Source of the DNA: Hyphomicrobiales bacterium
Lineage (GTDB): Bacteria > Pseudomonadota > Alphaproteobacteria > Rhizobiales > Beijerinckiaceae
Assembly: GCA_027483505.1 (NCBI GenBank)
Contig: JAIXUP010000009.1
Coordinates: 1 to 64,000 of the forward strand
Length of the DNA stretch: 64,000 nucleotides
Direction of reading: 5' to 3'
This document shows positions 7,471-64,000 of this stretch, in pieces. Both the position numbers and the translations under genes were made by a program. The notes below the pieces were generated by a model. It did not search any database, was not told the DNA's origin, and was given only the letters and a program-made list of their open reading frames with translations. The first letter of the stretch is position 1. The number at the start of each line of letters is the position of its first letter.

Positions 7471-7472
7471 GC

Positions 7473-10392: not shown

Positions 10393-10402
10393 GGGATTTT
10401 CC

Positions 10403-11237: not shown

Positions 11238-11309
11238 ACAAGATCAAGAGATCGGGCCTCCAGAGCCCGTCACGGCAGGAACGCATCACAGGCGAGGACA
11301 AGGCGGACG

Positions 11310-12713
11310 ATGGCCCTTCATCCGGACAGGCTCTTTCCGGCCGATGAAACGCAGCGCGGCATCGCACGGCGGCTGTATGCGGCGGTGCGCGACCTGCCGA
11401 TCGTCAGCCCGCACGGTCACACCGACCCGGCCTGGTATGCCCTCAATGAGGCCTTCCCCGACCCCGCCGCCCTGTTCGTCAAGCCCGACCACTATGTGTT
11501 TCGCATGCTGTATTCGCAGGGTGTGGCGCTCGAGCAGCTGGGCGTGCCGCGCGCCGATGGCGGGCCCGTCGAAACCGATCCACGCGCGATCTGGCGCCGT
11601 TTCGCGGCGCACTGGCATCTGTTTCGCGGCACGCCGACGAAGATGTGGTTCGAGCATGCTCTGGAGGACATCTTTGGCGTGACCGAGGTCCTTGCCCCGG
11701 GCAATGCCGACCGTCTCTACGATGTGATCGCCGGGGCTCTCGCGACGCCGGCCCTGCGCCCGAGGGCGCTGTATGAGCGGTTCAGGATCAAGGCGATCTC
11801 GACGACCGACGGCGCGCTCGACGACCTTGCCCATCACGACACCATCCGTGCTTCCGGATGGGCGGGGCGCGTGCTGCCATGCTACCGGCCGGACGCAGTT
11901 GTCGACCCGGAGTTCGACGGCTTCCGCGCCAATGTGGCGGCGCTTGGCGCGCTGACAGGCGAGGACACGTCAAGCTGGTCGGGCTATCTGGCGGCTCACC
12001 GCAAGCGCCGCGCCCACTTCATCGCGCGCGGCGCGACCGCTTCCGACCATGGCCACGCCACCGCCCGGACAATGAACCTGTCCAGGGCCGAGGCCGAGGC
12101 GTTGTTCGCCACAGTCACGACCGGCACGCCGACCCCGGCGGAGTGCGACGCCTTCCGCGGGCAGATGATCACCGAGTTCGCGCGCATGAGCCTCGATGAC
12201 GGTCTTGTGCTGCAGCTTCACCCCGGCTCGTTCCGCAACCACAGCGACATGCTGTTCCGCCGCTTCGGGCGCGACAAGGGAGCGGACATTCCGACGCCGA
12301 CTGATTACGTCCGTGCGCTCAAGCCGCTGCTCGACGCTGTCGGCCATGAGGCCGGACTCACCATCATCCTGTTCACGCTCGACGAGACGGCCTACAGCCG
12401 CGAACTGGCTCCGCTGGCCGGGGTCTATCCGGCGCTGAAGCTCGGCCCAGCCTGGTGGTTCTTCGATGCGCCGGAAGGCATGCGCCGCTTCCGCGAACTG
12501 ACCACGGAGACGGCCGGTTTCGCCAACACCGTCGGGTTCAACGACGACACGCGCGCCTATCTCTCGATTCCGGCACGCCACGACATGGCGCGCCGCTGCG
12601 ATTGCGCCTTTCTCAGCCGCCTTGTGGCCGAACACCGGCTTTCCGAGGATGACGCGCACGACATCGCCATCGACCTTGCCATCCGACTTGCAGAAAAGGC
12701 GTACAGGCTATGA
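11310..12713 (+). CDS. uxaC: Glucuronate (uronate) isomerase UxaC
   Basis: Isomerises D-glucuronate to D-fructuronate and D-galacturonate to D-tagaturonate. The 467-residue protein belongs to the amidohydrolase-fold UxaC family; the N-terminal metal-binding motif SPHGHTDPAWY is near residue 35, and QLHPGSFRNHSD and GPAWWFFDAPEGM are typical C-terminal blocks. It is the first gene of the plus-strand catabolic operon and overlaps kduI by four bases (ATGA). The product fructuronate is the substrate of UxuB encoded at the end of the same operon. Confidence 0.95.
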   Translation: MALHPDRLFPADETQRGIARRLYAAVRDLPIVSPHGHTDPAWYALNEAFPDPAALFVKPDHYVFRMLYSQGVALEQLGVPRADGGPVETDPRAIWRRFAAHWHLFRGTPTKMWFEHALEDIFGVTEVLAPGNADRLYDVIAGALATPALRPRALYERFRIKAISTTDGALDDLAHHDTIRASGWAGRVLPCYRPDAVVDPEFDGFRANVAALGALTGEDTSSWSGYLAAHRKRRAHFIARGATASDHGHATARTMNLSRAEAEALFATVTTGTPTPAECDAFRGQMITEFARMSLDDGLVLQLHPGSFRNHSDMLFRRFGRDKGADIPTPTDYVRALKPLLDAVGHEAGLTIILFTLDETAYSRELAPLAGVYPALKLGPAWWFFDAPEGMRRFRELTTETAGFANTVGFNDDTRAYLSIPARHDMARRCDCAFLSRLVAEHRLSEDDAHDIAIDLAIRLAEKAYRL

Positions 12714-13549
12714 TGCCCATCGACATGAGGCAGGCGGCCCATCCGCGCGACGTCAGGCACTATGACACCGCTGCGTTGCGCCGCGATTTCCTGATCGAGT
12801 CGCTGTTTTCCACCGGCTCGATCCATCTGACCTACAGCCATTACGAGCGCATGATCGTCGGCGGCGTCGTGCCGGTGATGGCGGACATCGCGCTGCCGGC
12901 CTACCGGCCAACGGGGACGCCGTTCTTCCTCGCCCGCCGCGAACTTGGCGTGTTCAACATCGGCGGCCCTGGACGCGTCACGGTCGACGGCACCGCCTAT
13001 GACATGGGCCGGCTCGATGCGCTCTATGTCGGCGTCGGCAGCCATGATGTCCACTTCACCAGCAAGGAGCCGTCGAAGCCCGCTCGCTTCTATCTCCTCA
13101 GCACGCCGGCCCATCGTCCCGCCAAGAACCAGAGGATCACGCATGCGGACGCCCGCAAGCTCCAGATGGGCGCGGCCGAGACAGCCAACACGCGCACCAT
13201 CTGCCAATATCTGATGCCGGATATGTGCGGCACGAACCAGCTCGTGATGGGGCTGACCATGCTGGCGCCCGGAGCCGTCTGGAACACCATGCCGGCCCAT
13301 ACCCATGACCGGCGCTCGGAAGCCTATCTGTACTTCGATCTGGCCCCCACCGCCCGGGTCTTGCACCTGATGGGCGAGCCGGCGGAGACACGCCATCTGG
13401 TGGTCGCCAACGAGCAGGCCATCCTGTCGCCGAACTGGTCGATCCACAGCGGCTGCGGCACTTCAAACTACAGCTTCATCTGGGGCATGGGCGGCGACAA
13501 TGTCGAGTACACCGACATGGACCCGGCACCGATGGAGATGCTGCGATGA
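12710..13549 (+). CDS. kduI: 5-dehydro-4-deoxy-D-glucuronate isomerase KduI
   Basis: Cupin-fold isomerase that converts 5-keto-4-deoxyuronate (from unsaturated uronates released by pectate or glycosaminoglycan lyases) to 2,5-diketo-3-deoxygluconate. It has 279 residues. The zinc-binding segment PAHTHDRRSEAYLYF contributes two histidines and a glutamate, and the final ligand is in WSIHSGCGTSNYSFIWG. It starts ATGATG overlapping the uxaC stop and overlaps kduD by four bases, so the three genes are translationally coupled. Confidence 0.95.
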   Translation: MMPIDMRQAAHPRDVRHYDTAALRRDFLIESLFSTGSIHLTYSHYERMIVGGVVPVMADIALPAYRPTGTPFFLARRELGVFNIGGPGRVTVDGTAYDMGRLDALYVGVGSHDVHFTSKEPSKPARFYLLSTPAHRPAKNQRITHADARKLQMGAAETANTRTICQYLMPDMCGTNQLVMGLTMLAPGAVWNTMPAHTHDRRSEAYLYFDLAPTARVLHLMGEPAETRHLVVANEQAILSPNWSIHSGCGTSNYSFIWGMGGDNVEYTDMDPAPMEMLR

Positions 13550-14313
13550 CGCAGGCGGCGTCGCCGTTCAGCCTCGCCGGAGCGAGAGCCCTCGTCACCG
13601 GCGCCAACACCGGCATCGGGCAGGGCATTGCGGTCGCTCTGGCCGGCGCGGGCGCGGAAGTGCTCGCGGTCGGCCGATCGCCGATGGACGAAACGGCAGC
13701 ATTGATCATGGCGGCGGGCGGCGCCTGCCATGCGATCCGCTGCGATCTCGCGGACAGCGCAGCGCGTGCGCAGTTGATCAGTGACGCCGTGGCGCGCTTT
13801 GGCCCGCTGGACATCCTCGTCAACAATGCGGGCATCATCCGGCGGGCGGATGCGCTCGACTTCACCGAGCAGGACTGGGATGACGTGATGGACGTCAACC
13901 TGAAAGCGGCGTTCTTCCTGGCCCAGGCCTTCGCGCGTCAGGCGCTCGAGGCGAAGCGGCCTGGGAAGATCATCAACATCGCCTCGATGCTGTCCTTCCA
14001 GGGCGGCATCCGCGTTGCGTCCTACACGGCGAGCAAGGGTGGCGTGGCCGGCATTACGAGGCTGCTGGCCTGCGAATGGGCCGCGAAGGGAATCAACGTC
14101 AACGCCATCGCGCCTGGCTACATCGTCAGCAACAACACCGAGGCGCTGCGCGCCGACCCGGACCGCTCCTCGGCGATCCTGGCGCGCATCCCCGCCGCAG
14201 GCTGGGGCGCGCCCGACGATATCGGCGGCGCGGCCGTGTTTCTCGCCAGTCCGGCGGCGCGCTATGTCCACGGCGCGATCCTTCCGGTCGATGGCGGCTG
14301 GCTGGCGAGGTGA
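13546..14313 (+). CDS. kduD: 2-deoxy-D-gluconate 3-dehydrogenase / 2-dehydro-3-deoxygluconate 5-dehydrogenase KduD
   Basis: Short-chain dehydrogenase that reduces 2,5-diketo-3-deoxygluconate to KDG with NAD(P)H. The 255-residue protein has the cofactor motif VTGANTGIGQG near residue 17, the structural VNNAGI near 95, the catalytic serine in NIASMLSFQG and the YTASK catalytic Tyr-Lys near 160. The C-terminus GAILPVDGGWLAR is typical. It overlaps kduI by four bases and the downstream cupin gene by one. Confidence 0.93.
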   Translation: MTQAASPFSLAGARALVTGANTGIGQGIAVALAGAGAEVLAVGRSPMDETAALIMAAGGACHAIRCDLADSAARAQLISDAVARFGPLDILVNNAGIIRRADALDFTEQDWDDVMDVNLKAAFFLAQAFARQALEAKRPGKIINIASMLSFQGGIRVASYTASKGGVAGITRLLACEWAAKGINVNAIAPGYIVSNNTEALRADPDRSSAILARIPAAGWGAPDDIGGAAVFLASPAARYVHGAILPVDGGWLAR

Positions 14314-52377: not shown

Positions 52378-53395
52378 CCTTGCTCAAATGGGGCGGGTGG
52401 TCCGGATCAAGGCCCTTGGCCCGTGCGGCTGCCTCGATCAGCCGGTAGGCCGGAGCAAGCATCGCAATGGCATCCGTCACCGGATCATCATCGCCGATCC
52501 AGGGCAGATCGCCAGAACGGCCGCCACAGACAAAGACGGGAACCCCGTCGCCCCGGAGGCGGGTCACGAGGTTGTCCACATCCATGCCGGTCCGGTCGTA
52601 AAGGCGGATGGCCAGCACGGGCGTCTGGGACGACAGCGCGGCGCGGGGGCCATGCAGCAGTTCGGCGGCGCTGTAGCCGAGCGCCGGAATCCGCAGCACC
52701 TCGGTCAGTTTGAGCGCGATCTCCCGTGCCGGCGCCAGGCCGAAGCCACGCCCGGTGATGCAGGCAGACGGTGCTTTCGCCAGGGCCGGCGCCAATGCTG
52801 TCCAGTCACAGGCATGCGCGAGATCAAGGCGGGCGGGCAGGCGCTCCAGCGCGGTCATCAACTCCGCATCGCCAGAGAGCCCGGCCACCAGCAGTGCGCC
52901 AGCCATCATTGAGGACGTCACCGATTTCGTCGCCGCGACCGCGCGTTCCGCCCCGGCCAGCAGCGGCAGGATATGGTCGGCGGCATTGGCCAGTGGCGAG
53001 TCTTCGGCATTGACCAGCGCGATGGTCTGCGCGCCTGCCGTCCGGGCCATGCGCGTGGCCGCGATGATGTCAGGACTGGCACCGGACTGCGAAATCACGA
53101 TGAACAGCGCGCCGTCGAGCTTCAGCGGACGCTGCAAGGCGGTGATCACAGACGGAGCCGTCATCGAAACCGGCAGCCCGAGCCGGGTTTCGATCAGATA
53201 GCGCAGGTGAACGCCGGCATGCCCGGAACTGCCGCGCCCGCAGATCACCGCCACTCGGGCACGGCCGGTATCAAGCCGACCGGCGAGGGCGTGGATCGCC
53301 GGGCGGCTGGCCAGCAGCCGCGCCGCCGCCTCGCCGCAGGTCGCTGCCTCCCGCGCCATGGCGCTGGTCACGGGCGCTGCCGGCGTCCCGGTCAT
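52361..53395 (-). CDS. Double-SIS sugar isomerase/deaminase (GlmS isomerase-like, NagB-II type)
   Basis: A 344-residue protein equivalent to the isomerase half of GlmS without the glutaminase domain. Two SIS domains carry CGRGSSGHAG and VISQSGASPDIIAA in the first, and GRGFGLAPAREIALKL and AELLHGP in the second, ending in the GlmS-like DPDHPPHLSKVT. Such proteins act as glucosamine-6-phosphate deaminases (NagB-II) or related isomerases. With nagA, murQ and a kinase nearby, release of ammonia and fructose-6-phosphate from GlcN-6-P is the best guess. It overlaps the GntR regulator gene by four bases. Confidence 0.88.
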   Translation of the reverse strand: MTGTPAAPVTSAMAREAATCGEAAARLLASRPAIHALAGRLDTGRARVAVICGRGSSGHAGVHLRYLIETRLGLPVSMTAPSVITALQRPLKLDGALFIVISQSGASPDIIAATRMARTAGAQTIALVNAEDSPLANAADHILPLLAGAERAVAATKSVTSSMMAGALLVAGLSGDAELMTALERLPARLDLAHACDWTALAPALAKAPSACITGRGFGLAPAREIALKLTEVLRIPALGYSAAELLHGPRAALSSQTPVLAIRLYDRTGMDVDNLVTRLRGDGVPVFVCGGRSGDLPWIGDDDPVTDAIAMLAPAYRLIEAAARAKGLDPDHPPHLSKVTRTL

Positions 53396-54150
53396 GGCTG
53401 GCGGCCCACCTCCTGCCGCAACTCCCTCACTTCGGTGATGAAGTCATAGCGGTCGCCGCGATAGGCAGAGCGGGTAAACTCGACCGGCGTGCCATTGGCG
53501 AGAAAGCCGCGGCGTTCGATGCGCAGGATCGCCGCGCCCACCGGCACCGAGAGCAGGCGCGCCTCGGCGGTGGTTGCAAGCGAGGCCTGCAGGCGCTGAA
53601 GGCCGCGGACAGGGCGGGCTTCGCGCAGGTCCAGCGCGGCGTAGAGCGAATCCTGCACATCATCCACCGATCCGAGAAACTGGGCCGGCACGACCGCGCG
53701 CTCGATGGCCAGGGGCTCGCCGTCCGCCATGCGGACGCGGGCGAAGCGCAGCACCGGCTGGTCGATGGACAGGGCCAGCGTCATGGCCTCGTCGGGCGTC
53801 GGCAGGCCGGCGCTCCGGTCCAGCCAGTGCGAGCCGGGCGTGAGGCCCCGGTTGCGCATGTCGGCGGAAAAGCCGGCCAGAAGGGCTGCGGGCTGCTCGA
53901 TGCGCGGCGCGATATAGGTGCCGGAGCCATGGCGGCGCGACAGCAGCCCCTCGCGCAGCAGCGTCTCGATGGCGCGCCGCACCGTGACGCGCGAGATTCC
54001 GACCGCGTCGCTGAGTTCGCGTTCCGAGGGCAGGGCCTCGCCGGTGCGGATGCCGCCATCCCTGATCTGGTTGCGGATCATGTCGGCGAGCTGCAGATAA
54101 AGCGGCGTGGCGCTGAGGCTGCTGAGCTGCTCCTTGACGATGGTGAGCAT
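53392..54150 (-). CDS. GntR/HutC-family regulator with UTRA domain, amino-sugar regulon
   Basis: A 252-residue regulator with an N-terminal winged helix (LADMIRNQIRDGGIRTGEALPSERELSDAVGISRVTVRRAI spans the DNA-binding part; key words are GEALPSERELS and SRVTVRRAI) and a C-terminal UTRA domain with LRFARVRMADGEPLAIERAVVP and SAYRGDRYDF. HutC-type regulators of this kind (NagR/DasR-like) sense GlcNAc-6-P or GlcN-6-P. It lies between the SIS and murQ genes, overlapping both, so it autoregulates with them. The ATACCA/TGGTAT elements of the locus are candidate operators. Confidence 0.9.
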   Translation of the reverse strand: MLTIVKEQLSSLSATPLYLQLADMIRNQIRDGGIRTGEALPSERELSDAVGISRVTVRRAIETLLREGLLSRRHGSGTYIAPRIEQPAALLAGFSADMRNRGLTPGSHWLDRSAGLPTPDEAMTLALSIDQPVLRFARVRMADGEPLAIERAVVPAQFLGSVDDVQDSLYAALDLREARPVRGLQRLQASLATTAEARLLSVPVGAAILRIERRGFLANGTPVEFTRSAYRGDRYDFITEVRELRQEVGRQP

Positions 54151-55046
54151 CAGGCGCTCTCCCCGACCGGAAGGCTGGCCAGCGCAACGCGCAGATTGTC
54201 GCCGCTGCCCGCGAGGATCGTCTCCGCATCGGCAAGGCTGTAGCCGAGCACGACCAGTGTCGCGAGCTTGATGTTGTCGCCTGTGCTGTCGAGCGCGGCG
54301 GCGGCCTCGATCTGCCCGCAGCCGGAGATGCGCGCCACCATCGCTTCCGCCCGCCGCCTCAGCTTGGCGTTGGAGACCTGCATGTTGACCATCATGCCGC
54401 GATAGACACGGCCCAGACGCAGCATGATGCCGCTGGATATCAGGTTCAGCACCACTTTCTGCGCCGTGCCGGCCTTCATCCTGGTCGAGCCTGCGATCAA
54501 CTCGCTGCCGGTGATGATCTCGATGCCGTGCCGTGCCCTGGCTGTGAGCGGCGCTCCGGCATTGTTGGACATGCCGATGGTCAGCGCTCCGCGTTCGCCG
54601 GCCCGTTCGATGGCGGCCACCGTGAACGGCGTCGAGCCGCTGGCCGCAACGCCGATGACGACGTCGCCGGGGCCGATGTCAGCCAGATCCATCTGGCGCG
54701 CGCCGTCCTCCGCATCATCCTCGGCGCCCTCGACGCTTGCGACGAGCGCGCCAAGCCCGCCAGCCATGGCGAAGACAAGGCGGCTCTGGGGCCAGTCGAA
54801 GGTCGGCGGCAGTTCCGCGCCATCCTGCACCGCGACGCGCCCGGAAGTGCCGGCCCCGACATAGACGAGGCGTCCGCCCTGCCTCAACCGCTCGGCGGCG
54901 TCGGCGACGGCCGACGTGATCGCTGGCAGCGCGGCATGCACCGCCGCCACTGCGGCCATCTGGCCATCCCACATGCCCTCGAGCGCGCTGGACAGGGGCC
55001 AGGCGTCAAGGTCGGCGAAGCGCGGATCAACATCTTCGGTTGCCAT
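54150..55046 (-). CDS. murQ: N-acetylmuramic acid 6-phosphate etherase MurQ
   Basis: Removes D-lactate from MurNAc-6-P to give GlcNAc-6-P. The 298-residue protein has a SIS domain with GAGTSGRVAVQDGAELPPTF near residue 65, VIGVAASGSTPFTVAA near 130 and AGSTRMKAGTAQKVVLNLIS near 205, the MurQ signature. It follows nagK- and murA-like genes on the same strand after a 129-base gap holding TGGTA/TACCA elements. One base overlaps the GntR start. Confidence 0.95.
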   Translation of the reverse strand: MATEDVDPRFADLDAWPLSSALEGMWDGQMAAVAAVHAALPAITSAVADAAERLRQGGRLVYVGAGTSGRVAVQDGAELPPTFDWPQSRLVFAMAGGLGALVASVEGAEDDAEDGARQMDLADIGPGDVVIGVAASGSTPFTVAAIERAGERGALTIGMSNNAGAPLTARARHGIEIITGSELIAGSTRMKAGTAQKVVLNLISSGIMLRLGRVYRGMMVNMQVSNAKLRRRAEAMVARISGCGQIEAAAALDSTGDNIKLATLVVLGYSLADAETILAGSGDNLRVALASLPVGESA

Positions 55047-55130
55047 GACGGCGTGCCTGCCTGACGATCATCTGGCGCAAGGGCCGGCGCGGAGATCGCA
55101 TCCCCGCAATCCGGCAGCCTGCGCGGAATT

Positions 55131-55176
55131 TGGTAGATACCAGTTAAAGGCCTTTTGGCCGAAAGGGAATACCAAT
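55131..55176. promoter_or_regulatory. Candidate GntR operators upstream of murQ
   Basis: TGGTAGATACCA (55131-55142) is a near-perfect palindrome with 5-base arms TGGTA/TACCA. AATACCAAT follows at 55168-55176, close to the kinase stop. A small GGCC-TTTT-GGCC hairpin lies between them (55149-55160). The elements lie 85 or more bases upstream of murQ and match those near anmK and nagA. Confidence 0.5.
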
Positions 55177-56072
55177 CACGCCGTGCCCGGCTGATTTGGC
55201 GCTGCGCGGCGGGCGAGGATCAGCGCCCCCGAAACAGCATCGCCATCGGCCGGACGCAGCCTGCGCCGCACATCAGGGGATAGCCAGGGCTCGATGGCGC
55301 TCGACAGCCCGCCGAGCAGCGCGACCTTGGGCGCCCCTTCGTCGAACAGGCCGCGCACCAGCGCGTCGATCTGCTCAGCGGCCTGCTGGACGATCCGGCG
55401 CGCGGTTGCGTCGCCCTGGTCGGCATGGCGCATGACCATCGGGGCGAGGGTGGCGTAATCGGTGGCGCTGGCGCGGTCCATCCAGCCGATGATCTCGAAC
55501 GGATCATGGTTGAAGCGCTGCATCACCTCCGTGAGCAGCGCGGTCGGCGGCAGGCGGCCATCATGGGCGCGCAGGGCGAGGCGGACGGCCTGCAGGCCCA
55601 GATCGGCGCCGCTGCCCTCGTCGGAGACCGGAAAGCCATAGCCGCCGATGCGGAGGTCGCGCCCCCCGACCCTGCCGATCCCGATCGAACCTGTGCCGGC
55701 GATGACGATGGCGCCGTCCTCGCCTGAATGTGCGCCGAAGCAGGCTGCCAGCGCATCGCTGATGAAGCTGATCGAGGCGAACGGATGGGGCTGCCGCGCC
55801 AGCGCGTCCAACGCTCCCTTGCGGCCGACGCCAGCCAGCCCGATACCGGCATGCAAGGTGACCCGCGACGGATCGATCCCGGCCTCGGCCATCGCTGCGC
55901 TGGCGGCGGTCATGATCGAGGCGAAGGCGGCGTCGATGCCGAGGCGGGTGGTGGCCGGTCCGGACAGGCCCTGCCCGATCACCTCGCCGGTCCCGGTTTC
56001 GATGCGGGCGCGGCAGCCGGTTCCGCCGCCATCGACGCCCAGGAAGCAGACGCGCCCTGCCGCCATGCGCAT
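55176..56072 (-). CDS. N-acetylglucosamine kinase-like BadF/BadG-type ATPase
   Basis: A 298-residue sugar kinase of the ASKHA superfamily, BadF/BadG/BcrA group, resembling eukaryotic-type N-acetylglucosamine kinase. The phosphate-1 motif is GVDGGGTGCRARIET near residue 10, the adenosine region includes AIVIAGTGSIGIGRV near 105, and GGYGFPVSDEGSGADLG follows. It would phosphorylate GlcNAc to GlcNAc-6-P. The start ATG at 56072 overlaps the murA stop by one base (TGATG). MurNAc phosphorylation is an alternative. Confidence 0.87.
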   Translation of the reverse strand: MRMAAGRVCFLGVDGGGTGCRARIETGTGEVIGQGLSGPATTRLGIDAAFASIMTAASAAMAEAGIDPSRVTLHAGIGLAGVGRKGALDALARQPHPFASISFISDALAACFGAHSGEDGAIVIAGTGSIGIGRVGGRDLRIGGYGFPVSDEGSGADLGLQAVRLALRAHDGRLPPTALLTEVMQRFNHDPFEIIGWMDRASATDYATLAPMVMRHADQGDATARRIVQQAAEQIDALVRGLFDEGAPKVALLGGLSSAIEPWLSPDVRRRLRPADGDAVSGALILARRAAPNQPGTA

Positions 56073-57334
56073 CAGTCCTTCAGCCGTTCGATCAGTGCGC
56101 CGCAACGCCTGAGCTTGAGATCAAGCTGCTCATAGCCGCGATCGAGGTGATAGACCCGGTTGATGATGGTCTCACCCTCGGCAGCCAGTGCCGCCAGCAC
56201 GAGGCAGACGGAGGCCCTGAGGTCGGTCGCCATCACCTGCGCGCCGCGCAGGGGTGCGCCGCCCCGGACCAGCGCCGAGGTTCCCTGCAAGGTGATGTTG
56301 GCCCCCAGCCGCATCAGTTCCGGCGCGTGCATGAAGCGGTTCTCGAAGACCGTTTCACGGATCATCGATGCCCCTTCGGCGCGGCACATCAGGGCCATGA
56401 ACTGGGCCTGCAGGTCGGTCGGAAAGCCGGGATAGGGTTCGGTGATGATGTCGACGCCGCGCAGCGGTCCGGAGGCCGAGACCATCAGGCCGCGATCGCC
56501 GGGCCAGATGCTGACGCCGACCGCCTCGAGCACCTGGGCGATGGCGGAGAGGTGTTCGAGCCTTGCATGGGTGAGCTCCAGCGTGCCGCCTGTGATGGCG
56601 GCGGCTATGGCGTAGGTGCCGGCCTCGATGCGGTCCGGAATCACCTCATGGCGCGCGGTCTTCCAGTGCGTGCCGCCGGCGATGAGCAGGCGGTGTGAGC
56701 CGGCGCCCTCGATGCGGGCGCCCATGCCGATCAGGCAGGCGGCGAGATCGACCACTTCCGGCTCGCGTGCTGCGTTGACGATTTCCGTTTCGCCCGCCGC
56801 CATGGTCGCGGCCATCATGGCTGTCTCGGTGGCGCCGACGGAGGGCGAGCCGAAGACGATGCGTGCACCCTTCAGCCCGCCCGGCGCCTCGCCGACGATC
56901 ATGCCGCCCTCGATGTCGATCGTCGCGCCGAGGCTGGCGAGCGCCTTCAGATGCAGGTCGACCGGCCGCGCGCCGATGGCGCAGCCGCCCGGCAGCGAGA
57001 CCCGCGCCCGGCCGAACCGGCCCATGACCGGGCCGAGCAGGAGAACCGTGGCCCTCATGCGCCGGACGGTATCGTAGCCGGTCTCGACCGGGTCGGCCCG
57101 GCCCGCATCGAGGGTGACGGCATGATCCGAGAGCCGCGTGACGGCAACCCCATGGCGGGCGACAACATCAAGCATGGTCGCGATGTCGGTGACGGCCGGC
57201 AGGTTGGTCAACGTCAGGGGCTGGGGGCTGAGGATCGCAGCGGCGATCTGCGGCAGGCTGGCGTTCTTGGCGCCCGCGATGGCGACCGAGCCGTTGAGCG
57301 CCCGACCTCCTGTGATCTTCAGTCTGTCCATCAT
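56072..57334 (-). CDS. murA: MurA, UDP-N-acetylglucosamine 1-carboxyvinyltransferase
   Basis: Adds enolpyruvate to UDP-GlcNAc, the first committed step of peptidoglycan synthesis. About 420 residues. Active-site elements are intact: AGAKNASLPQI (catalytic Lys-Asn) near residue 20, LPGGCAIGARPVDLH with the catalytic, fosfomycin-sensitive cysteine near 115, and EPYPGFPTDLQAQ with the conserved aspartate near 305. The start is ATG 57334 or 57331 after AGAGGCGG. It is unusual to find murA within an amino-sugar catabolic unit; it might be a second copy. Confidence 0.95.
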   Translation of the reverse strand: MMDRLKITGGRALNGSVAIAGAKNASLPQIAAAILSPQPLTLTNLPAVTDIATMLDVVARHGVAVTRLSDHAVTLDAGRADPVETGYDTVRRMRATVLLLGPVMGRFGRARVSLPGGCAIGARPVDLHLKALASLGATIDIEGGMIVGEAPGGLKGARIVFGSPSVGATETAMMAATMAAGETEIVNAAREPEVVDLAACLIGMGARIEGAGSHRLLIAGGTHWKTARHEVIPDRIEAGTYAIAAAITGGTLELTHARLEHLSAIAQVLEAVGVSIWPGDRGLMVSASGPLRGVDIITEPYPGFPTDLQAQFMALMCRAEGASMIRETVFENRFMHAPELMRLGANITLQGTSALVRGGAPLRGAQVMATDLRASVCLVLAALAAEGETIINRVYHLDRGYEQLDLKLRRCGALIERLKD

Positions 57335-57366
57335 CCGCCTCTGCGGCTGGCCAAGCTTGACGGGCG

Positions 57367-57412
57367 ATACCAGTGTTGCGTCTGGTCTTGTAAATGGCTT
57401 TATAGTGGTATT
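57367..57412. promoter_or_regulatory. Divergent murA / nagA control region with ATACCA and TGGTAT elements
   Basis: ATACCAG (57367-57373) and GTGGTATTG (57405-57413) form an inverted pair about 33 bases apart in the 193-base divergent region between murA and nagA. They match the words found upstream of murQ and anmK. TTGTAA and related AT-rich words around 57388-57404 could serve as promoter elements. Confidence 0.45.
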
Positions 57413-57527
57413 GTCAAGAACGGGTCCGGCAGGGTGCCAGCGCGCGATGTGAGGGCGCCCCGAACGCCGCCCTTTGTTTGTTCCCGCCCATGGCAGGCGC
57501 CCGCCGCCTGCCGAATCAGGTTGCGTC

Positions 57528-58703
57528 ATGGAAGCCGAAGCCATTCCGCTGCGCGCGCTGCTCGCGCCCCGCCTGTTCGACGGGCAGGGTTGGCGCGGGC
57601 CGACCCTGCTTCACATCGCCGGCGGGTGCATCGCGGCACTGGAGCCTGCGCCCCGCCACGCGCCCGACGATTGCCTGATGCTGCCAGACGACGCGTTGCT
57701 TGCCCCGGGCTTCATTGACATCCAGGTCAATGGCGGCGGCGACGCGCTGCTCAATGACAGCCCGGATGAGCAGACGATCGCGCGCATGGCGCAGGCGCAC
57801 CGGCGTTTCGGGACGACCGGACTGCTGCCCACATTGATCACCGACGTTTCCGGCAAGATGGCTGATCTTCTGGCCGCGGCGGATGCGGGGCTTTCGGTTC
57901 CCGGCGTGCTGGGCTTCCATCTTGAAGGGCCATTCCTCAATCCCGCCCGCAAGGGCATCCATCCGGCGGCCTTCATGCGAAGGCCGGATGCGGCCGATCT
58001 GGCCTTGCTCGCACGGTTCGGCCGGCTCGGGCGCTCGCTGGTGACGCTGGCGCCGGAAATGATGCCGCCCGGGGCGGTCAAGGCGCTGGCAGAGGCCGGT
58101 TTGGCGCTCAGCGCAGGGCATTCGGAGGCGACCGCAGCCGAGGTCGACGCCGCGATCGGGGCGGGGCTGTCGGGCGTCACCCACCTGTTCAACGCGATGT
58201 CGCAGATCACGCCGCGCGAGCCCGGGCTGGTCGGCATGGCGCTCGCCGATGGGCGTCTGATGGCAAGCATCATCTGCGACGGGCTGCATGTCGCGCCGCT
58301 CAATCTGAGGCTGGCGTACAGGCTGATGGGGCGCGACCGGCTGATGCTGGTAAGCGACGCCATGCCGACGGTCGGCGGCGCAACGGGGACCTTTTCATTG
58401 CAGGGCCGCGTCATCTGCCTTGAAGGAGGACGGTTGACCGGTCCGGACGGGACGCTGGCGGGCGCGCATCTGGGCATGATCGAAGCTGTCCGCAATGCGG
58501 TGACCATGATGGGATGCCCGCTTGACGACGCTCTGGTGATGGCGTCCGGCACGCCGGCGCGCTTTCTCGGGCTCGACCGGCAGCACGGCCGGATCGCGCA
58601 AGGATTCGCCGCCGATCTCGTCGCGCTGCGGGGCGAACGGCTCATCGTGTCGGGCACCTGCATCGCGGGTCAGTGGCTGACGCACCGGCCGCCTGACCGG
58701 TGA
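57528..58703 (+). CDS. nagA: N-acetylglucosamine-6-phosphate deacetylase NagA
   Basis: Deacetylates GlcNAc-6-P to GlcN-6-P. The 391-residue amidohydrolase has LAPGFIDIQVNGGG near residue 60, FHLEGPFLNPARKGIH with a metal-binding glutamate near 130, GHSEATAAEV with a metal histidine near 195, THLFNAMSQI near 215 and LVSDAMPTVGG with the catalytic aspartate near 272. The start is ATG 57528 (MEAEAIPLRAL); a TTG further upstream in frame is less likely. It is the only plus-strand gene between murA and the molybdenum hydroxylase genes. Confidence 0.94.
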   Translation: MEAEAIPLRALLAPRLFDGQGWRGPTLLHIAGGCIAALEPAPRHAPDDCLMLPDDALLAPGFIDIQVNGGGDALLNDSPDEQTIARMAQAHRRFGTTGLLPTLITDVSGKMADLLAAADAGLSVPGVLGFHLEGPFLNPARKGIHPAAFMRRPDAADLALLARFGRLGRSLVTLAPEMMPPGAVKALAEAGLALSAGHSEATAAEVDAAIGAGLSGVTHLFNAMSQITPREPGLVGMALADGRLMASIICDGLHVAPLNLRLAYRLMGRDRLMLVSDAMPTVGGATGTFSLQGRVICLEGGRLTGPDGTLAGAHLGMIEAVRNAVTMMGCPLDDALVMASGTPARFLGLDRQHGRIAQGFAADLVALRGERLIVSGTCIAGQWLTHRPPDR

Positions 58704-58806
58704 TCGCCGCAATGTGAACCGCAGATGATTTTGTGGCCTTGAATGTTGACGGCTGACTGTGATCGTCTGACAGTTGAAACAGACAACAATGGTGGGGAGG
58801 CGACGC

Positions 58807-59265
58807 GTGGCAAAGCTCAATGTGAATGGTGCGGTGATGGAGGTCACGGCGCATCCCGACACACCTCTGCTCTGGGTCCTGCGTGAACAGATCGGGCTGA
58901 CGGGAACCAAGTATGGTTGCGGGGTCGCCCAGTGCGGAGCCTGCACGGTCCATATCGACGGGCAGGCCGTCCGGGCCTGCTCCCTGCCGCTGAGCGCCGT
59001 CAACGACAGCCAGAAGATCGTCACCATCGAGGGGCTCTCGCCCAATGGCATGCATCCGGTGCAGGTCGCCTGGCGCGAACTCGACGTGCCGCAGTGCGGC
59101 TACTGCCAGTCCGGCATGATCATGGCCGCAGCGGCGCTGCTGGCCGAGAAGAAGAATCCGACTGACGCGGACATCGACGCAGCCATGACCAACATCTGTC
59201 GCTGCGGGACCTACAACCGCGTGCGGGCCGGCATCAAGCAAGCCGCCCAGACACGCCAGGGCTGA
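58807..59265 (+). CDS. Molybdenum hydroxylase small subunit, (2Fe-2S)-binding (IorA-like)
   Basis: A 152-residue electron-transfer subunit of the xanthine dehydrogenase/isoquinoline 1-oxidoreductase family. The N-terminal plant-type [2Fe-2S] site is [17 protein letters not shown] near residue 40, with its fourth cysteine in VRACSLP, and the second, helical cluster uses [10 protein letters not shown] near 100 and [11 protein letters not shown] near 135. The start is GTG 58807, seven bases after GGGGAGG. It is followed after 11 bases by the catalytic subunit gene. No FAD subunit gene is present, as in IorAB and aldehyde dehydrogenase types. Confidence 0.92.
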
Positions 59266-59276
59266 GGAGCATCATC

Positions 59277-61472
59277 ATGACGCTGCACGATGTCACCCCG
59301 CCCGCCACCCGGCCCTCGCGCCGGACGCTTCTGAAGGGCGCCGCCGCCGGCCTTGTGGTCGGCTTTCACCTTCCGGCCTCCAAGGCCCTCGCCCAGGGAG
59401 CGGCCCCGGCCCCATCCACGCCGGAGATCAATGCCTGGGTCGTGATCCGGCCTGACGACACGGTTGTCCTGCGCATGGCGCGGTCCGAAATGGGGCAGGG
59501 CACCCGCACCGGCCTCGCACAGTTGATTGCGGAGGAGCTTCACTGCGACTGGTCCAGGATCGTGACCGAGTACGTCACGCCCGGGCAATCGCTGGCCCGC
59601 AACCGGGCCTGGGGCAATTTCCAGACCGCAGGCAGCCAGGGCATCCGCCAGAGCCAGGACTATGTGCGGCGCGGCGGGGCGACCGCCCGGATCATGCTGA
59701 TCAACGCCGCCGCCGCCCAGTGGCAGGCCACGCCGGAGCATTGCGTGGCGAAGGACGGCGTGATCACCCACACCCCGACCGGCCGCACATTGCGTTATGG
59801 TCAGGTTGCGGAGGCGGCCAGCAAGCAGCTTGTGCCCCAGACCGTCGCGCTGAAGGATCCGTCGGCATGGACGGTGATCGGAACCTCCAGGCCAAGGCTC
59901 GACACCGCTGACAAGACGACCGGCAAGCTCATCTATGGTTCGGACCTGAAAATGCCGGGCATGCTGCTGGCAGCGGTCCAGCAGTGCCCTGTCTTCGGCG
60001 GCAAGGTGAAATCCTTCGACGCCGCCAAGGTCAAGGACATGCCGGGCGTCAGGCATGTGCTGCAGGCAGGCGACAACACGGTCTGTGTCGTCGGCGATAC
60101 CTGGTGGCAGGCCAAGACGGCGCTCGATGCGCTGCCGGTAGAATGGGATTATGGCCCGAACCGCACCGTCTCATCCGAGACGATCGCGGCGATGCTGCGC
60201 GAAGGCCTCAATGCGTCCGAAGCCTTTGTTGGCAACACGCAGGGTGACGCCAAGGCCGCGATCGCCGGGGCTGCCCGCAAGGTCGAGGCGACCTATGGCT
60301 ATCCGTTCCAGAACCACGCGCCGATGGAGCCGATGAACGCCACGGTGGTGTGGACGCCGACGCGCTGCGATGTCTGGTGTCCGACGCAGAACGGGGAGGC
60401 AGCGCTCGCCGCCGCCGCCGCCGCCGCCGGCCTGCCGCAGACCGCCTGCGACGTGCATCGCGTCGATCTGGGCGGCGGATTCGGTCGCCGCACCACGCAT
60501 GACTGGCTGACCCAGGCCGTGCTGATCGCCAAGCAGGTTCCCGGCGTGCCGATCAAGATGCTGTGGTCGCGCGAAGAAGACATGGTGCAGGGCCGCTATC
60601 ATCCGGTGACCATGTGCAAGATGTCGGCCGGGCTTGATGCGCAAGGCAACCTGACCGGGCTGCACATGCGTATTTCCGGCCAGTCGATCCTGTCCTATGT
60701 TTTCCCGAACGCGCTCCAGAACGGGCGCGATCCGGTCACGTTCCAGGGACTCAATCCGACCGGCGCGGAAGGCCAGTTCGGCTACACCATCCCGAACCTG
60801 CTGATCGACCATGCGATGCGCAACACCCATGTGCCGCCGCATTTCTGGCGCGGGGTGAACAACAACCAGAACGCCATCTATGTCGAGTGCTTCATGGATG
60901 AGCTGGCGCATGCTGCGGGCCAGGACCCCCTGGCATTCCGCCGCAAGCTGATGGCCAATCATCCCAAGCATCTGGCCGTTCTGAATGCGGTGGCCGAGCG
61001 GATCGGCTGGGACAAGCCGGCGCCGGCGGGCGTGTTCCGCGGGCTGGCCCAGCAGATGGGCTTCGGCTCCTACGTCGCTGCGGCGGCGGAGGTCTCCGTC
61101 GATGCCGCCGGCAAGCTGAAGATGCACCGGATCGTCGCGGCGACGGATTGCGGCGTGGCCGTCAACCCGCGCCAGATCGAGATGCAGGTGGAAGGCTCGT
61201 TCTCCTACGGGCTCTCGGCGCTGCTCTACGGGGAATGCACGGTGAAGGACGGCGCCATCGTCGAGACCAATTTCGACACCTACAACGTCCTGAGGATCGA
61301 CGAGATGCCGAAGGTCGAGACGATCGTGATGCCGTCCGGCGGGTTCTGGGGCGGGGTGGGCGAACCGACGATCATGGTCGCCGCTCCCGCCGTCCTGAAC
61401 GCGATCTTCGCCGCCACCGGCAAGCGCATCCGGCAGGTCCCGATCAAGGATCAGGACCTGAAGCGGGCTTGA
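59277..61472 (+). CDS. Molybdopterin-binding catalytic subunit (IorB-like), Tat-exported
   Basis: A 731-residue large subunit of the isoquinoline 1-oxidoreductase/aldehyde dehydrogenase type. The N-terminal twin-arginine signal SRRTLLKGAAAGLVVG followed by KALAQ indicates periplasmic location. Molybdopterin-binding and active-site blocks include ARSEMGQGTRTGLAQLIAEEL near residue 70, VDLGGGFGRRTTHDW near 400, HFWRGVNNNQNAIYVECF near 520 and a C-terminal GGFWGGVGEPTIMVAAPAV, whose glutamate is the conserved catalytic one. Its stop overlaps the soxX TTG start as TTGA, indicating a common transcript. Substrate is unknown. Confidence 0.93.
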   Translation: MTLHDVTPPATRPSRRTLLKGAAAGLVVGFHLPASKALAQGAAPAPSTPEINAWVVIRPDDTVVLRMARSEMGQGTRTGLAQLIAEELHCDWSRIVTEYVTPGQSLARNRAWGNFQTAGSQGIRQSQDYVRRGGATARIMLINAAAAQWQATPEHCVAKDGVITHTPTGRTLRYGQVAEAASKQLVPQTVALKDPSAWTVIGTSRPRLDTADKTTGKLIYGSDLKMPGMLLAAVQQCPVFGGKVKSFDAAKVKDMPGVRHVLQAGDNTVCVVGDTWWQAKTALDALPVEWDYGPNRTVSSETIAAMLREGLNASEAFVGNTQGDAKAAIAGAARKVEATYGYPFQNHAPMEPMNATVVWTPTRCDVWCPTQNGEAALAAAAAAAGLPQTACDVHRVDLGGGFGRRTTHDWLTQAVLIAKQVPGVPIKMLWSREEDMVQGRYHPVTMCKMSAGLDAQGNLTGLHMRISGQSILSYVFPNALQNGRDPVTFQGLNPTGAEGQFGYTIPNLLIDHAMRNTHVPPHFWRGVNNNQNAIYVECFMDELAHAAGQDPLAFRRKLMANHPKHLAVLNAVAERIGWDKPAPAGVFRGLAQQMGFGSYVAAAAEVSVDAAGKLKMHRIVAATDCGVAVNPRQIEMQVEGSFSYGLSALLYGECTVKDGAIVETNFDTYNVLRIDEMPKVETIVMPSGGFWGGVGEPTIMVAAPAVLNAIFAATGKRIRQVPIKDQDLKRA

Positions 61473-61918
61473 CGGTCCGTCGGCACGCGCCGCTTGTCGC
61501 GGCCTGCCTCCTGGCGTTGGCTCCGGCCGGCGCCAGCGAGGTTGTCCCGTTCCAGGCGGCAGGCGACGCCATCGAGCAGCCGCTGCGCGCGTTGTCGGGG
61601 AATGCCGCGCGCGGAGCCCAGGTGGTCAAGAACCGCGAGACGGGCAACTGCCTGATCTGCCATGCGATTCCCGACCGGACGGAGCGTTTTCAGGGGGAGA
61701 TCGGGCCGCCGCTGGCCGGCGTCGGGCTGAGGCTGACGGAAGGCCAGATTCGGCTCAGGCTGGTTGATCCGACGCAGGTGAACCCACGGGCGATCATGCC
61801 CGCCTATCACCGTGTTTCGGGCCTGACCAATGTGGATACGCGCTATGCGGGGAGGCCCGTTCTGGGCGCACAGGAGATCGAGGACGTGGTGGCCTATCTG
61901 GCGAGCCTGAAGGAGTGA
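61469..61918 (+). CDS. soxX: SoxX, sulfur-oxidation c-type cytochrome
   Basis: Mono-heme subunit of the SoxXA cytochrome that joins thiosulfate or another sulfur compound to SoxYZ. The 149-residue precursor has a short signal peptide (TVRRHAPLVAACLLALAPAGAS), the heme motif CLICH in ETGNCLICHAIPD near residue 60, and the family end QEIEDVVAYLASLKE. The candidate distal methionine is in PRAIMPAYH. A TTG at 61469, overlapping the iorB stop, is the only start that leaves a complete signal peptide. The gene belongs to one operon with soxY, soxZ and soxA. Confidence 0.88.
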   Translation: MTVRRHAPLVAACLLALAPAGASEVVPFQAAGDAIEQPLRALSGNAARGAQVVKNRETGNCLICHAIPDRTERFQGEIGPPLAGVGLRLTEGQIRLRLVDPTQVNPRAIMPAYHRVSGLTNVDTRYAGRPVLGAQEIEDVVAYLASLKE

Positions 61919-61921
61919 CCC

Positions 61922-62407
61922 ATGGCTGACAAGGCCCCAACCCGGCGCATGGTGGCGGCAGGGCTTGCTGTCATGCCCTTCGCCGTGCAGGCGCAACCGA
62001 TGGCGAGCGCGGCGGCGGACGTGAACCGGTCGAGCTCGTCAGAAAACTTCGCGGAGGCCGAGCGCGCCCTGCTGGCCGGGCGCACGCCGATCGCCGCCGG
62101 GATCACGCTCGACGTGCCGAAACTGTCGGAGAACGGCAACTCCGTCGATGTGCTGATCAACGTCGACAGCGCCATGACACGCGAGGATCATGTCCGGGCG
62201 ATCCATATCCTCTCCGAGCAGAACCCGTTTCCGCGCGTGGCGACCTTCACCCTGTCTGCGCGGGCCGGACGGGCCGAGGTGGCCACGCGAATCCGGCTCG
62301 CCACCACCCAGAATATCGTCGTCCTGGCCGAGACCAGCCGCGGCGCGATCCATCGGGCCGAGCAGGAGGTGATCGTGATCCTGGGCGCCTGCGTGGACGG
62401 AGGTTGA
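61922..62407 (+). CDS. soxY: SoxY, thiosulfate carrier protein (atypical C-terminal arm)
   Basis: Periplasmic carrier that covalently binds sulfur intermediates on a C-terminal cysteine. The 161-residue precursor has a signal sequence through AVQAQPMAS and conserved core words NGNSVDVLINVDSAMT, IHILSEQNPFPRVATF and RLATTQNIVVLAET. The carrier arm ends VILGACVDGG, so the usual GGCGG is replaced by GACVDGG, with the cysteine at residue 158 followed by four residues instead of two. A strong GAAGGAG precedes the ATG. Translational spacing to soxX is three bases. Confidence 0.9.
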   Translation: MADKAPTRRMVAAGLAVMPFAVQAQPMASAAADVNRSSSSENFAEAERALLAGRTPIAAGITLDVPKLSENGNSVDVLINVDSAMTREDHVRAIHILSEQNPFPRVATFTLSARAGRAEVATRIRLATTQNIVVLAETSRGAIHRAEQEVIVILGACVDGG

Positions 62408-62410
62408 GCG

Positions 62411-62734
62411 ATGGCTGACATCACCGCCCGCGTGACCATGCCGACGAGCGCCCGCAAGGGCGAGATCATCGAGATCAAGGTTCTCGCACGCCACACGATG
62501 GACCGGGCCGTTGACGCGCCGGGCCTGAAGCCAAGTCCGCGCCGGATCATCCACAGCTTCCGGGCGTCCTATGCGGGCGAGGAGATTTTCCGGATGGCGC
62601 TGTCGTCCGGCATCGCCTCCAATCCCTTCATCAGTTTCACGACCGTTGCGACCGAAACCGGCGTGATCTCGTTCGAATGGCTTGAGGATGGCGGGGCCGT
62701 CTACAGCCGCGCGGCGACTCTCGTGGTGACATGA
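62411..62734 (+). CDS. soxZ: SoxZ, SoxY partner protein
   Basis: A 107-residue immunoglobulin-like protein without a signal peptide, which binds SoxY and is exported with it. Core words are ARVTMPTSARKGEIIEIKVLARH, RIIHSFRASYAGEEIFRM and ISFEWLEDGGAVYSR. The start ATG at 62411 follows GGAGG. It overlaps soxA by four bases (ATGA). Confidence 0.93.
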   Translation: MADITARVTMPTSARKGEIIEIKVLARHTMDRAVDAPGLKPSPRRIIHSFRASYAGEEIFRMALSSGIASNPFISFTTVATETGVISFEWLEDGGAVYSRAATLVVT

Positions 62735-63483
62735 GGGTCGGCGCGGCGCTGCTGGCTTGCTGCTGGGTTGTCACGGCCCTTGCGGGCGATGTGCGCGCGC
62801 CGCGCTCCTTCCTGTCGCCGGAACTGCAGGCTTTGCAGGACGACCCGGCGCGACATCCGGGCTGGCTCTGGGTCGAGCAGGGCGAAGCGCTGTGGCGGGC
62901 CGCGCCGCCCGATTCTGGCAAGCAGGCCTGTGCGGGCTGCCATGGCGACATCGCCAGCATGTCCGGCGTCGCGGCACGCTATCCGGCTGTCGCCTCTGAC
63001 GGCGCCTTGCTCAATCTCGAACTCAGGATCGAACGCTGCAGGGCTGAACAGCAGGGAGCGTCCGCCTTCGGCTACGAGAGCGAGGCGCTGCTGTCGCTCA
63101 CAGCCGCGATCGCGGCGCGTTCACGCGGGCAGCCCGTCAACGTCCGGGTCGACGGCCCCGCGGCCGCCAGGTTGGCTGACGGCAGGCGCCTCTACAGCCT
63201 GCGTCAGGGCCAGCTCAACCTGTCCTGCCAGCAGTGCCATGAAGAGAATGTCGGCAAGCGCCTGCGCGGCGATGTCATCTCCCATGGCCTCGGCACAGGC
63301 TACCCGGCCTACCGGCTCGAATGGAACGGGGTCGGTTCACTGCACCGGCGCCTGCGGGCCTGTTCGCTCGGCGTGCGCGCGGTCCAGGCGCCGTTCGGCT
63401 CGCCTGACTATCTGGCGCTGGAGCTCTTCCTGGCCGACAAGGCGCGCGGACTGGCGGTTGAGGCTCCGGGCATCCGGCGCTGA
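62731..63483 (+). CDS. soxA: SoxA, diheme cytochrome c subunit of SoxXA
   Basis: A 250-residue diheme SoxA precursor with a signal peptide ending around LAGDVRA. The two heme motifs are CAGCHGD near residue 69 and CQQCHEEN near 168, and the active-site cysteine is in RRLRACSLGVRA near 212, where a persulfide forms the heme ligand and catalytic centre. It is the last gene of the iorA-iorB-soxXYZA block; its stop lies 18 bases before the convergent tail-fibre-like gene. No soxB or soxCD follows within the window. Confidence 0.93.
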   Translation: MRVGAALLACCWVVTALAGDVRAPRSFLSPELQALQDDPARHPGWLWVEQGEALWRAAPPDSGKQACAGCHGDIASMSGVAARYPAVASDGALLNLELRIERCRAEQQGASAFGYESEALLSLTAAIAARSRGQPVNVRVDGPAAARLADGRRLYSLRQGQLNLSCQQCHEENVGKRLRGDVISHGLGTGYPAYRLEWNGVGSLHRRLRACSLGVRAVQAPFGSPDYLALELFLADKARGLAVEAPGIRR

Positions 63484-63501
63484 GGTCGCCCGAAGGTCTT
63501 G

Positions 63502-64000
63502 TCAAAGCCGCGTGCCGCCGAAGCCTGTTGCTGCTGCTCCGATCGTGCAGGCTGCAGGGCTTGCAAGCACCAGTTCCACTGTGTCGCCCTGGCTGAGCGG
63601 CAGGATCGCCGAGACCGCTATGCTGTCGGTTGCGCCCGCACCGATGCTGCGTGCCGCGATGTTGCCGGACGGCGCGCCATTGCGGCTGCATGCGAGTTGC
63701 ACGGTGGCGGCGGTGCCGGCCATCGTGACCTGGACCTGCGCGGTGAACAGGTAACTGCCAGCGCGCGGCGCCGTGTAGGCGCAGCTTCCCGTGCTGTAGG
63801 CGGCGGATGCGATCCTTGCGACGGTGAGCGCCGTCAGTTTGGTCCATCCCGCGCCGCCCGGCACGCTCTGGCTGGCTCCAGCCTGACAGTCGAAGACGTG
63901 GGCCTCGATGGCGCTGTCGACATAGGCCTTGGTGGCGATCCCTGCTGCGGCGGTCGGTGCTGCGGCAACAGTGGCGAGCCCCGTCGTCCGGTCGACCCGC
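63502..64000 (-). CDS. Tail-fibre-like protein with C1q/jelly-roll-type C-terminal domain (5' end outside window)
   Basis: The C-terminal 165 residues of a longer gene that enters from the right edge. The visible part begins RVDRTTGLATVAAAP and GIATKAYVDSAIEAHVFD, words typical of phage tail-fibre and structural proteins. It then continues into a small beta-rich domain (KLTALTVARIASAAYST, SYLFTAQVQVTM, LSQGDTVELVLA) resembling C1q-like folds. A shorter reading from GTG 63864 is an artefact of the window end. It could belong to a prophage or a gene transfer agent. Confidence 0.65.
   Translation of the reverse strand, partial: RVDRTTGLATVAAAPTAAAGIATKAYVDSAIEAHVFDCQAGASQSVPGGAGWTKLTALTVARIASAAYSTGSCAYTAPRAGSYLFTAQVQVTMAGTAATVQLACSRNGAPSGNIAARSIGAGATDSIAVSAILPLSQGDTVELVLASPAACTIGAAATGFGGTRL

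Follow-up and report, generated by a model that had tools for sequence, protein, structure and literature searches.

The stretch analyzed here, 64,000 nucleotides of contig JAIXUP010000009.1 (assembly GCA_027483505.1) from a Hyphomicrobiales bacterium and referred to below as the window, represents positions C81:1-64000 of a 3.9 Mb draft genome that is 99.93% complete. Towards its downstream end it carries six genes in which a two-subunit molybdenum hydroxylase of the IorA/IorB type is joined to soxX, soxY, soxZ and soxA. This six-gene set is the compact form of a transferable cassette, which is Sox-like but does not look like a thiosulfate-oxidising Sox system. The component genes are as follows:

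58807..59265, plus strand: iorA-type [2Fe-2S] subunit, 152 residues, GTG start; PF01799 97.2 bits, PF00111 34.9 bits
59277..61472, plus strand: iorB-type molybdenum hydroxylase catalytic subunit, 731 residues, ATG start, TGA stop at 61470-61472; MoCoBD_1 and MoCoBD_2 domains
61469..61918, plus strand: soxX, c-type cytochrome, TTG start at 61469; TIGR04485 77.9 bits (cut-off 61)
61922..62407, plus strand: soxY of the AACIE-arm type, C-terminal arm ILGACVDGG; PF13501 105.1 bits (cut-off 28.4)
62411..62734, plus strand: soxZ; PF08770 60.8 bits (cut-off 25), TIGR04490 56.9 bits, under the cut-off of 76
62731..63483, plus strand: soxA, two CxxCH haem motifs and a C-terminal R-A-C cysteine; TIGR04484 197.6 bits (cut-off 110)

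An earlier note on this DNA had described IorA/IorB-type genes running directly into soxX through a TTGA overlap, followed by soxY, soxZ and soxA, with a Tat-exported catalytic subunit. Open reading frames, sequence and family models bear out this arrangement: iorB and soxX overlap by TTGA, soxZ and soxA overlap by ATGA, and the remaining gaps among the sox genes measure 3 bases. Family-model searches place Fer2/Fer2_2 domains in IorA, such that both the molybdenum cofactor (MoCo)-binding domains and the [2Fe-2S] partner are present, while the twin-arginine signal SRRTLLKG can be read at the N-terminus of IorB, in agreement with export of this subunit. The closest solved chain to IorB is 8gy3_C, the ‘large subunit of aldehyde dehydrogenase’ (E 1.8e-80), and solved SoxY chains match the window SoxY at E 7.4e-15. 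SoxX and SoxA both exceed their NCBIfam cut-offs, with haem motifs and the R-x-C cysteine of SoxA in place; only SoxY and SoxZ miss theirs, and both of these pass the Pfam cut-offs. At the iorB-soxX junction a consensus scan found no promoter-like or terminator-like match between 61440 and 61480, a place where either would have refuted the earlier note; across 58500-63800 the same scan returned a single promoter-like match, at 62163, and a single terminator-like match, at 59172 (minus strand).

The lack of soxB and soxCD in the window, also claimed by the earlier note, was confirmed and extends to the entire genome for SoxB and SoxC, SoxD not having been searched for. Nothing in the genome exceeds the cut-off for SoxB (TIGR04486; best match 132.6 bits against 550, on C57) or for SoxC (TIGR04555; best match 167.5 bits against 420). 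Nor is there a conventional sox operon next door: the window Sox proteins find no match at 80-140 kb of C81, and the sole other SoxY of the genome is encoded on C87 (locus L057, C87:123001-143000). At about 10184-13590 of that locus lies a second SoxB-less module, fccA-fccB-soxY-soxZ, whose SoxY arm reads VSVGGCAT and which adjoins a gene for a YeeE/YedE-type sulfur transporter; no soxX or soxA match was found near it within the 20 kb fetched. Comparable soxYZ pairs, with GGC-x-T arms and on short loci without a soxX or soxA match, were observed at L016, L022, L025 and L026. The fccB gene is absent from the window cassette and present elsewhere in the genome, which also possesses two XdhC-type genes, both on contigs other than that of the window.

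Distribution and gene order of the cassette

The linkage was examined in a family set of 149 genomes, which was searched with SoxY and IorB of the window, a locus being counted as linked where SoxY lies at most 2.5 kb downstream of iorB. IorB homologues of at least 59% identity were found in 39 of the 149 genomes, of which 27 are linked, 11 are sox-less and one is undecided (G069, locus L295, where the contig stops 2.0 kb downstream). SoxB exceeds its cut-off in eight of the 27 linked genomes and in none of the other 19. Among 297 genomes of the order, 32 bear IorB, and 27 of these 32 are linked. A third sample, the named loci, comprises the best 80 of the matches listed for a profile built from 16 sox-linked IorBs, across bacterial genomes; soxY lies downstream in 73 of the 80, and the remaining seven are cut short by the end of the contig, with soxX still visible in two. 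This sample is biased towards linkage since the query profile is itself sox-linked, and the family, order and class counts (the last given below) are the fairer ones. Linkage in relatives, and the presence of soxB elsewhere in their genomes, had been put forward in the earlier note as tests of the arrangement; the linkage is present in family, order and named loci, mostly in genomes without SoxB over cut-off in the family set. A simple breakpoint of a normal sox operon is ruled out by this conserved linkage, together with the lack of an adjacent sox operon and of SoxB over cut-off.

The named loci belong to Bosea, Phreatobacter, Roseomonas and kin, Microvirga, Methylobacterium, Bradyrhizobium, Skermanella, Mesorhizobium, Polaromonas, Duganella, Pseudoduganella, Ramlibacter and others, as well as to two Rokubacteria metagenome-assembled genomes (MAGs), one of which is linked and the other cut off. 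The cassette thus ranges over Alpha- and Betaproteobacteria and one Rokubacteria MAG, plasmids included, the plasmid-borne copies being those of Roseomonas marmotae, Methylobacterium sp. NMS14P and Neorhizobium galegae.

All sets together yield 146 linked loci, or 136 after collapsing identical IorB C-termini (L259 and L300, both from Sinorhizobium plasmids, are nearly identical to judge by their annotation). The order iorA-iorB-soxX-soxY-soxZ-soxA is found in 125 of the 136 non-identical loci and in five more in which iorA falls off the fetched locus; the remaining exceptions are L250, L251 and L255, which represent a divergent type, and L162, L190 and L194, where soxZ and/or soxA went undetected. 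A third partner is frequent, as fccB, encoding the flavoprotein of flavocytochrome c sulfide dehydrogenase (PF21706, PF09242), is present in 72 of the 136, located in the iorB/soxX interval (53 loci), downstream on the same strand (12), downstream on the opposite strand (six) or upstream (one). A small CxxCH protein is usually encoded just ahead of fccB, and the full cassette form accordingly has eight genes. Of the 146 linked loci, 75 have fccB at most 8 kb from iorB, as against none of 28 sox-less ones. Other neighbours recur rarely, the top cluster, which looks like a generic ABC transporter ATPase, being found in only 11 of the 80 named loci.

Natural variants extend this picture. Locus L265 (G803:C33:132001-150000; 4652-12957) encodes, closely spaced on a single strand, cytochrome c-iorA-iorB-fccA-fccB-soxX-soxY-soxZ-soxA followed by XdhC and a MobA-like transferase, with soxA and xdhC overlapping, and so connects the Sox genes with genes for maturation of the hydroxylase cofactor. 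The two genes ahead of this cassette resemble, by sequence only, a two-component system. A deeper, second linkage type is represented by L102/L255 (G159:C53), L250 (G234:C77) and L251 (G515:C100), where IorB has about 50% identity and soxY follows it directly; the order in L102/L255 is iorB-soxY-soxZ-soxA-soxX.

Distances between IorB sequences are correlated with those of SoxX, SoxY, SoxZ and SoxA (r 0.585-0.628, 0 of 999 permutations for each) in a sample of 70 linked loci, of which 69 were randomly chosen, a correlation to which shared host ancestry also contributes. The nearest sampled relative of the window in all five genes is a Lake Pavin Hyphomicrobiales MAG, while the next nearest sampled loci are of Phreatobacter or Roseomonas type and not those of Bosea. 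The Roseomonas affinity of the window copy points to transfer of the cassette as a unit.

As regards the flanks of the window copy, the upstream genes (53392-58703) have what we take to be an amino-sugar or cell-wall recycling character, encoding a GntR regulator and MurQ-like, BadF/GlcNAc-kinase-like, MurA-like and NagA-like proteins. On the other side, a minus-strand gene for a DUF2793 protein (PF10983) occupies 63502-64000, continues to C81:64587 and is convergent with soxA.

The SoxY arm and its association with IorB

The earlier description of the unit as soxXYZA without soxB/soxCD is correct as to gene content; it undersells the frequent presence of fccAB and, above all, a rebuilt SoxY arm. 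In ordinary Sox systems the GGCGG arm of SoxY fits SoxB and SoxCD. The window SoxY instead ends in GACVDGG, conforming to an A-C-x-[D/E] pattern, a criterion that represents our reading of the TIGR04487 name (‘SoxY-related AACIE arm’) combined with the arm listing. It scores 102.9 bits against the true-SoxY cut-off of 125 and better, 123.6 bits, against TIGR04487, yet remains under the cut-off of 172 of the latter model as well. The cassette SoxYs of L261 and L265 exceed that cut-off (212-213 bits), the Roseomonas plasmid copy (155.2 bits) lies under it, and the Methylobacterium plasmid SoxY is annotated as a ‘SoxY-related AACIE arm protein’. By these profiles and motifs, the window SoxY and its Roseomonas relative form a side branch of the AACIE type, ending in CVDGG or CVETG. 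Across the 136 non-identical loci the arm invariably contains [AGPS]-A-C, followed by x-[DE] in 135 (the exception being L255, of the divergent type), and a GGCGG arm was found in none. The cassette SoxY may consequently be regarded as a distinct type with a rebuilt arm, and since that arm is never GGCGG, thiosulfate oxidation with missing parts is an unlikely reading. The acidic residue two positions after the SoxY cysteine would disfavor anionic thiosulfate.

The partners of SoxY have retained their motifs. SoxA possesses two CxxCH motifs in 133 of 134 loci and the C-terminal R-x-C cysteine in 130 of 134, while the SoxX haem motif is present in 134 of 134 (SoxA went undetected in L190 and L194, SoxX in L250 and L251). 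The chemistry by which SoxA loads SoxY thus appears, to judge by these residues, to have been kept while the arm was replaced.

The IorBs in question form a separate clade, sharing no more than 46% identity with their nearest paralogues among the family genomes, and the association between the two proteins is asymmetric. In a class set of 385 genomes, a SoxY over the TIGR04487 cut-off occurs in 20, all of which also possess a gene of the IorB clade; the two are adjacent in 17, separated by contig ends in two and on different contigs in one (G238). Conversely, IorB without Sox is common. Sox-less copies are distributed over several clades of the IorB tree, on which the linked label needs seven changes, each of them forced by well-supported branches. 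This quickly built tree, without bootstrap, contains 45 linked rows (42 random ones plus the window, L250 and L251), 16 sox-less rows and eight paralogues, and omits eight loci taken as duplicates of other sets; L247 is labelled sox-less on it despite soxX and soxA, as is L252 (G238) despite fccAB-soxXYZA on another contig. Two iorAB copies of the same clade, one linked to sox (C45) and one sox-less (C26, L066), are present in G148, which thus offers a natural pair for telling the two roles apart. Since a SoxY over the TIGR04487 cut-off is always accompanied by IorB in the class sample, while IorB also occurs without Sox, it is suggested that the Sox part serves the hydroxylase. The earlier note is borne out in so far as a conserved joint unit exists. 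The joint function that it proposed, in which the hydroxylase would oxidise a sulfur-containing or aldehydic substrate and pass electrons or a product to the Sox carrier system, is one candidate, and this asymmetry rather speaks for service in the other direction.

Within IorB, residues E351, W524, R525, V527 and E696 are invariant in 130 linked and 29 sox-less sequences, E696 also in the eight paralogue rows (rows of at most 650 residues and L250, L251 and L255 were left out, and L247 was counted as sox-less). The WRGV loop presumably lines the substrate pocket, as in xanthine oxidase, and the glutamate of GVGEP near the C-terminus (E696) is assumed to be catalytic. F523, just before the invariant loop, is the near-invariant position that loosens most without Sox, being present in 129 of 130 linked as against 16 of 29 sox-less sequences.

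Proposed mechanism and competing explanations

We give about even weight to the view that the cassette encodes a periplasmic molybdenum hydroxylase (IorAB) together with a sulfur-handling partner of its own. A more specific proposal, to which we assign somewhat less than an even chance, is that the SoxXA-charged AACxE arm reaches the IorB-type active site, either presenting carrier-bound organosulfur for oxidation at the sulfur-adjacent carbon or re-installing Mo=S in the periplasm. Enzymes of the xanthine oxidase type need a Mo=S ligand and have been resulfurated in vitro with sulfide; to our knowledge, no periplasmic cofactor sulfuration has been described. In this scheme SoxXA would oxidatively load the SoxY cysteine with sulfur from sulfide, from sulfane that FccAB has produced or from a small thiol, and not from thiosulfate, upon which the loaded arm would enter the substrate funnel of IorB in place of SoxB or SoxCD. 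The bound sulfur would then either belong to the substrate, which IorB would oxidise at the adjoining carbon, a variant that is rather doubtful when taken singly, or serve to restore the Mo=S ligand of IorB, a variant we hold to be unlikely, with electrons carried off by FccAB and the Sox cytochromes. The sulfur exchange between the SoxY arm and IorAB is itself a step that we infer.

Several observations weigh against this reading, in which the functional tie between IorAB and Sox is a predicted one. A SoxY-based mechanism has its most serious single counter-example in locus L247 (G214:C1:2346001-2366000; 8848-12909), which has the order iorA-iorB-soxX-soxA, with SoxA haem motifs and C-terminal cysteine kept, and in which no soxY or soxZ match was found. 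A cytochrome c gene lies beside iorAB in six of 28 sox-less loci as against five of the 146 linked ones, as if the Sox cytochromes merely replaced it. The active-site residues are identical in linked and sox-less IorB, so that the hydroxylase seems not to need Sox for its chemistry, and since XdhC occurs elsewhere in this genome, the enzyme does not strictly require a sulfur donor in the periplasm. In addition, fccB was not found in 64 of the 136 loci, and three family-set genomes (G025, G053 and G127) possess an AACIE-type SoxY, encoded on a short contig or where a contig begins, with no IorB match at E 1e-100, a gap that may reflect assembly loss or the limit of seven candidates scored per genome.

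Among the alternatives, it is improbable, if the best of them, that IorAB degrades free organosulfur and that the released sulfide or thiol is caught by FccAB and SoxXA-SoxYZ, IorB and SoxY never coming into contact, which represents the simplest form of the idea in the earlier note and is to be judged equally improbable in that form. The confinement of nearby fccB to linked loci and the shared active-site residues of linked and sox-less IorB both speak for such disposal, whereas neighbouring genes for sulfur or carbon catabolism are not widely recurrent and no step known to clear sulfur from SoxY is encoded by the cassette. The methanethiol oxidase SBP56, a possible source of sulfide and aldehyde, likewise finds no match in the window genome and is present in only two of the 27 cassette genomes, and in 17 of the 149 genomes of the family set. 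A methanethiol oxidase partner, delivering formaldehyde and sulfide, was accordingly rejected, SBP56 being unmatched in the window genome and in 25 of the 27 cassette family genomes.

Slightly less probable still is an electron relay, in which IorAB, without a cytochrome subunit of its own, passes electrons to SoxX/SoxA (and FccA), with SoxYZ carried along or of minor importance. Three-subunit aldehyde dehydrogenases possess their own cytochrome c subunit, and no gene for such a subunit lies beside iorAB in the window, SoxX and SoxA aside. L247, with soxX and soxA in the absence of soxYZ, fits a relay well, as do the cytochrome c counts given above, to which an annotated cytochrome c gene in Agrobacterium Q15/94 comes on top. 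A pure relay, however, needs neither the SoxY cysteine, present in 136 of 136 loci, nor the SoxA R-x-C, present in 130 of 134, and L265 possesses a separate cytochrome c in addition to the whole Sox set. Chance hitchhiking of unrelated functions on one mobile stretch is very improbable, for although the cassette is apparently mobile as a whole, occurs on plasmids and has a window copy that resembles the Phreatobacter and Roseomonas copies more closely than the Bosea ones, its order is held in 125 of 136 loci with nothing else constant around it, and the SoxY type, where over its cut-off, is found with IorB in 20 of 20 class genomes.

The surroundings of sox-less iorAB bear on a further candidate, namely that Sox replaces the MoCo sulfurase XdhC. 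In Agrobacterium Q15/94 the sox-less iorAB is followed by genes for cytochrome c, XdhC and an NTP transferase; that of Methylosinus OB3b faces genes for a nucleotidyltransferase and XdhC; and that of Sinorhizobium sits after a cytochrome c gene. Five of the 28 sox-less loci have XdhC at most 2.5 kb from iorB, as against none of the 146 linked ones. Two of the five, L063 and L264, look by record length like the same Methylosinus trichosporium OB3b plasmid, L063, L064, L067 and L069 constitute one clade on the IorB tree, and L265 has Sox and XdhC in one run. Mutual exclusion is accordingly not claimed, and the candidate was set aside. It is also unlikely that IorAB acts as a stand-in for SoxCD in thiosulfate oxidation, there being no SoxB over cut-off to release sulfate and the arm not being GGCGG.

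Relation to known systems and implications

The cassette resembles the thiosulfate-oxidising Sox system (SoxXA, SoxYZ, SoxB and SoxCD) in its SoxX, SoxA and SoxZ homologues, in the haems and C-terminal cysteine of SoxA and in the invariant SoxY arm cysteine, and differs from it in the [AGPS]AC-x-[DE] arm, in the xanthine-oxidase-family partner and, for the window genome, in having no SoxB or SoxC over cut-off. With isoquinoline 1-oxidoreductase (IorAB) and aldehyde dehydrogenase of the 8gy3 type it shares a [2Fe-2S] subunit and a twin-arginine catalytic subunit; the window cassette is distinguished from these by its separate clade, its Sox linkage and the lack of a cytochrome subunit gene of its own.

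According to the passages concerned of a 2013 study by Kappler and colleagues, Starkeya novella possesses a second sox cluster, soxX2Y2Z2A2F2, which lacks soxB/soxCD and forms one operon with a molybdenum enzyme of the xanthine oxidase family (Snov_1975/1976) (PMC3797975). By this description the cluster would be the longer form of the same cassette, as it combines soxX, soxY, soxZ and soxA without soxB/CD with a flavocytochrome and a molybdenum enzyme in one operon, and the linkage itself has on this account been known since 2013. Expression was reported to be very low on glucose, methanol and thiosulfate; those authors read this as a sign that the cluster has no functional significance there, a view that they did not extend to other conditions of growth (PMC3797975). 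The very low expression with thiosulfate further weakens the SoxCD stand-in. The passages concern a single organism and do not contain the arm signature or the distribution of the cassette. In SAR324, as far as the relevant passages indicate, fcc is flanked by SoxY and SoxZ and an isoquinoline 1-oxidoreductase is separately reported (PMC4782131), while an IorAB-Sox linkage is not stated in the corresponding parts of PMC2864759, PMC11767975 and PMC11582611. No paper on the spread of the cassette, its arm signature, the one-way IorB dependence or the mechanism was found in our searches of open-access literature.

The so-called ‘incomplete sox operons’ of heterotrophs are easily taken for broken or partial thiosulfate oxidation. 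The cassette suggests that one large class of these is neither, since it has a SoxY arm of its own, a fixed partner enzyme and, in 19 of the 27 cassette genomes of the family set, no SoxB over cut-off. Metagenome surveys that infer thiosulfate oxidation from soxX, soxY, soxZ or soxA alone would miscount it. The cassette also provides a direct experimental way into the role of SoxYZ-like carriers beside dehydrogenases, and a host for which it is already on record, S. novella, is available in culture. Carried by many soil and water bacteria, it points to a predicted use of Sox proteins other than thiosulfate oxidation.

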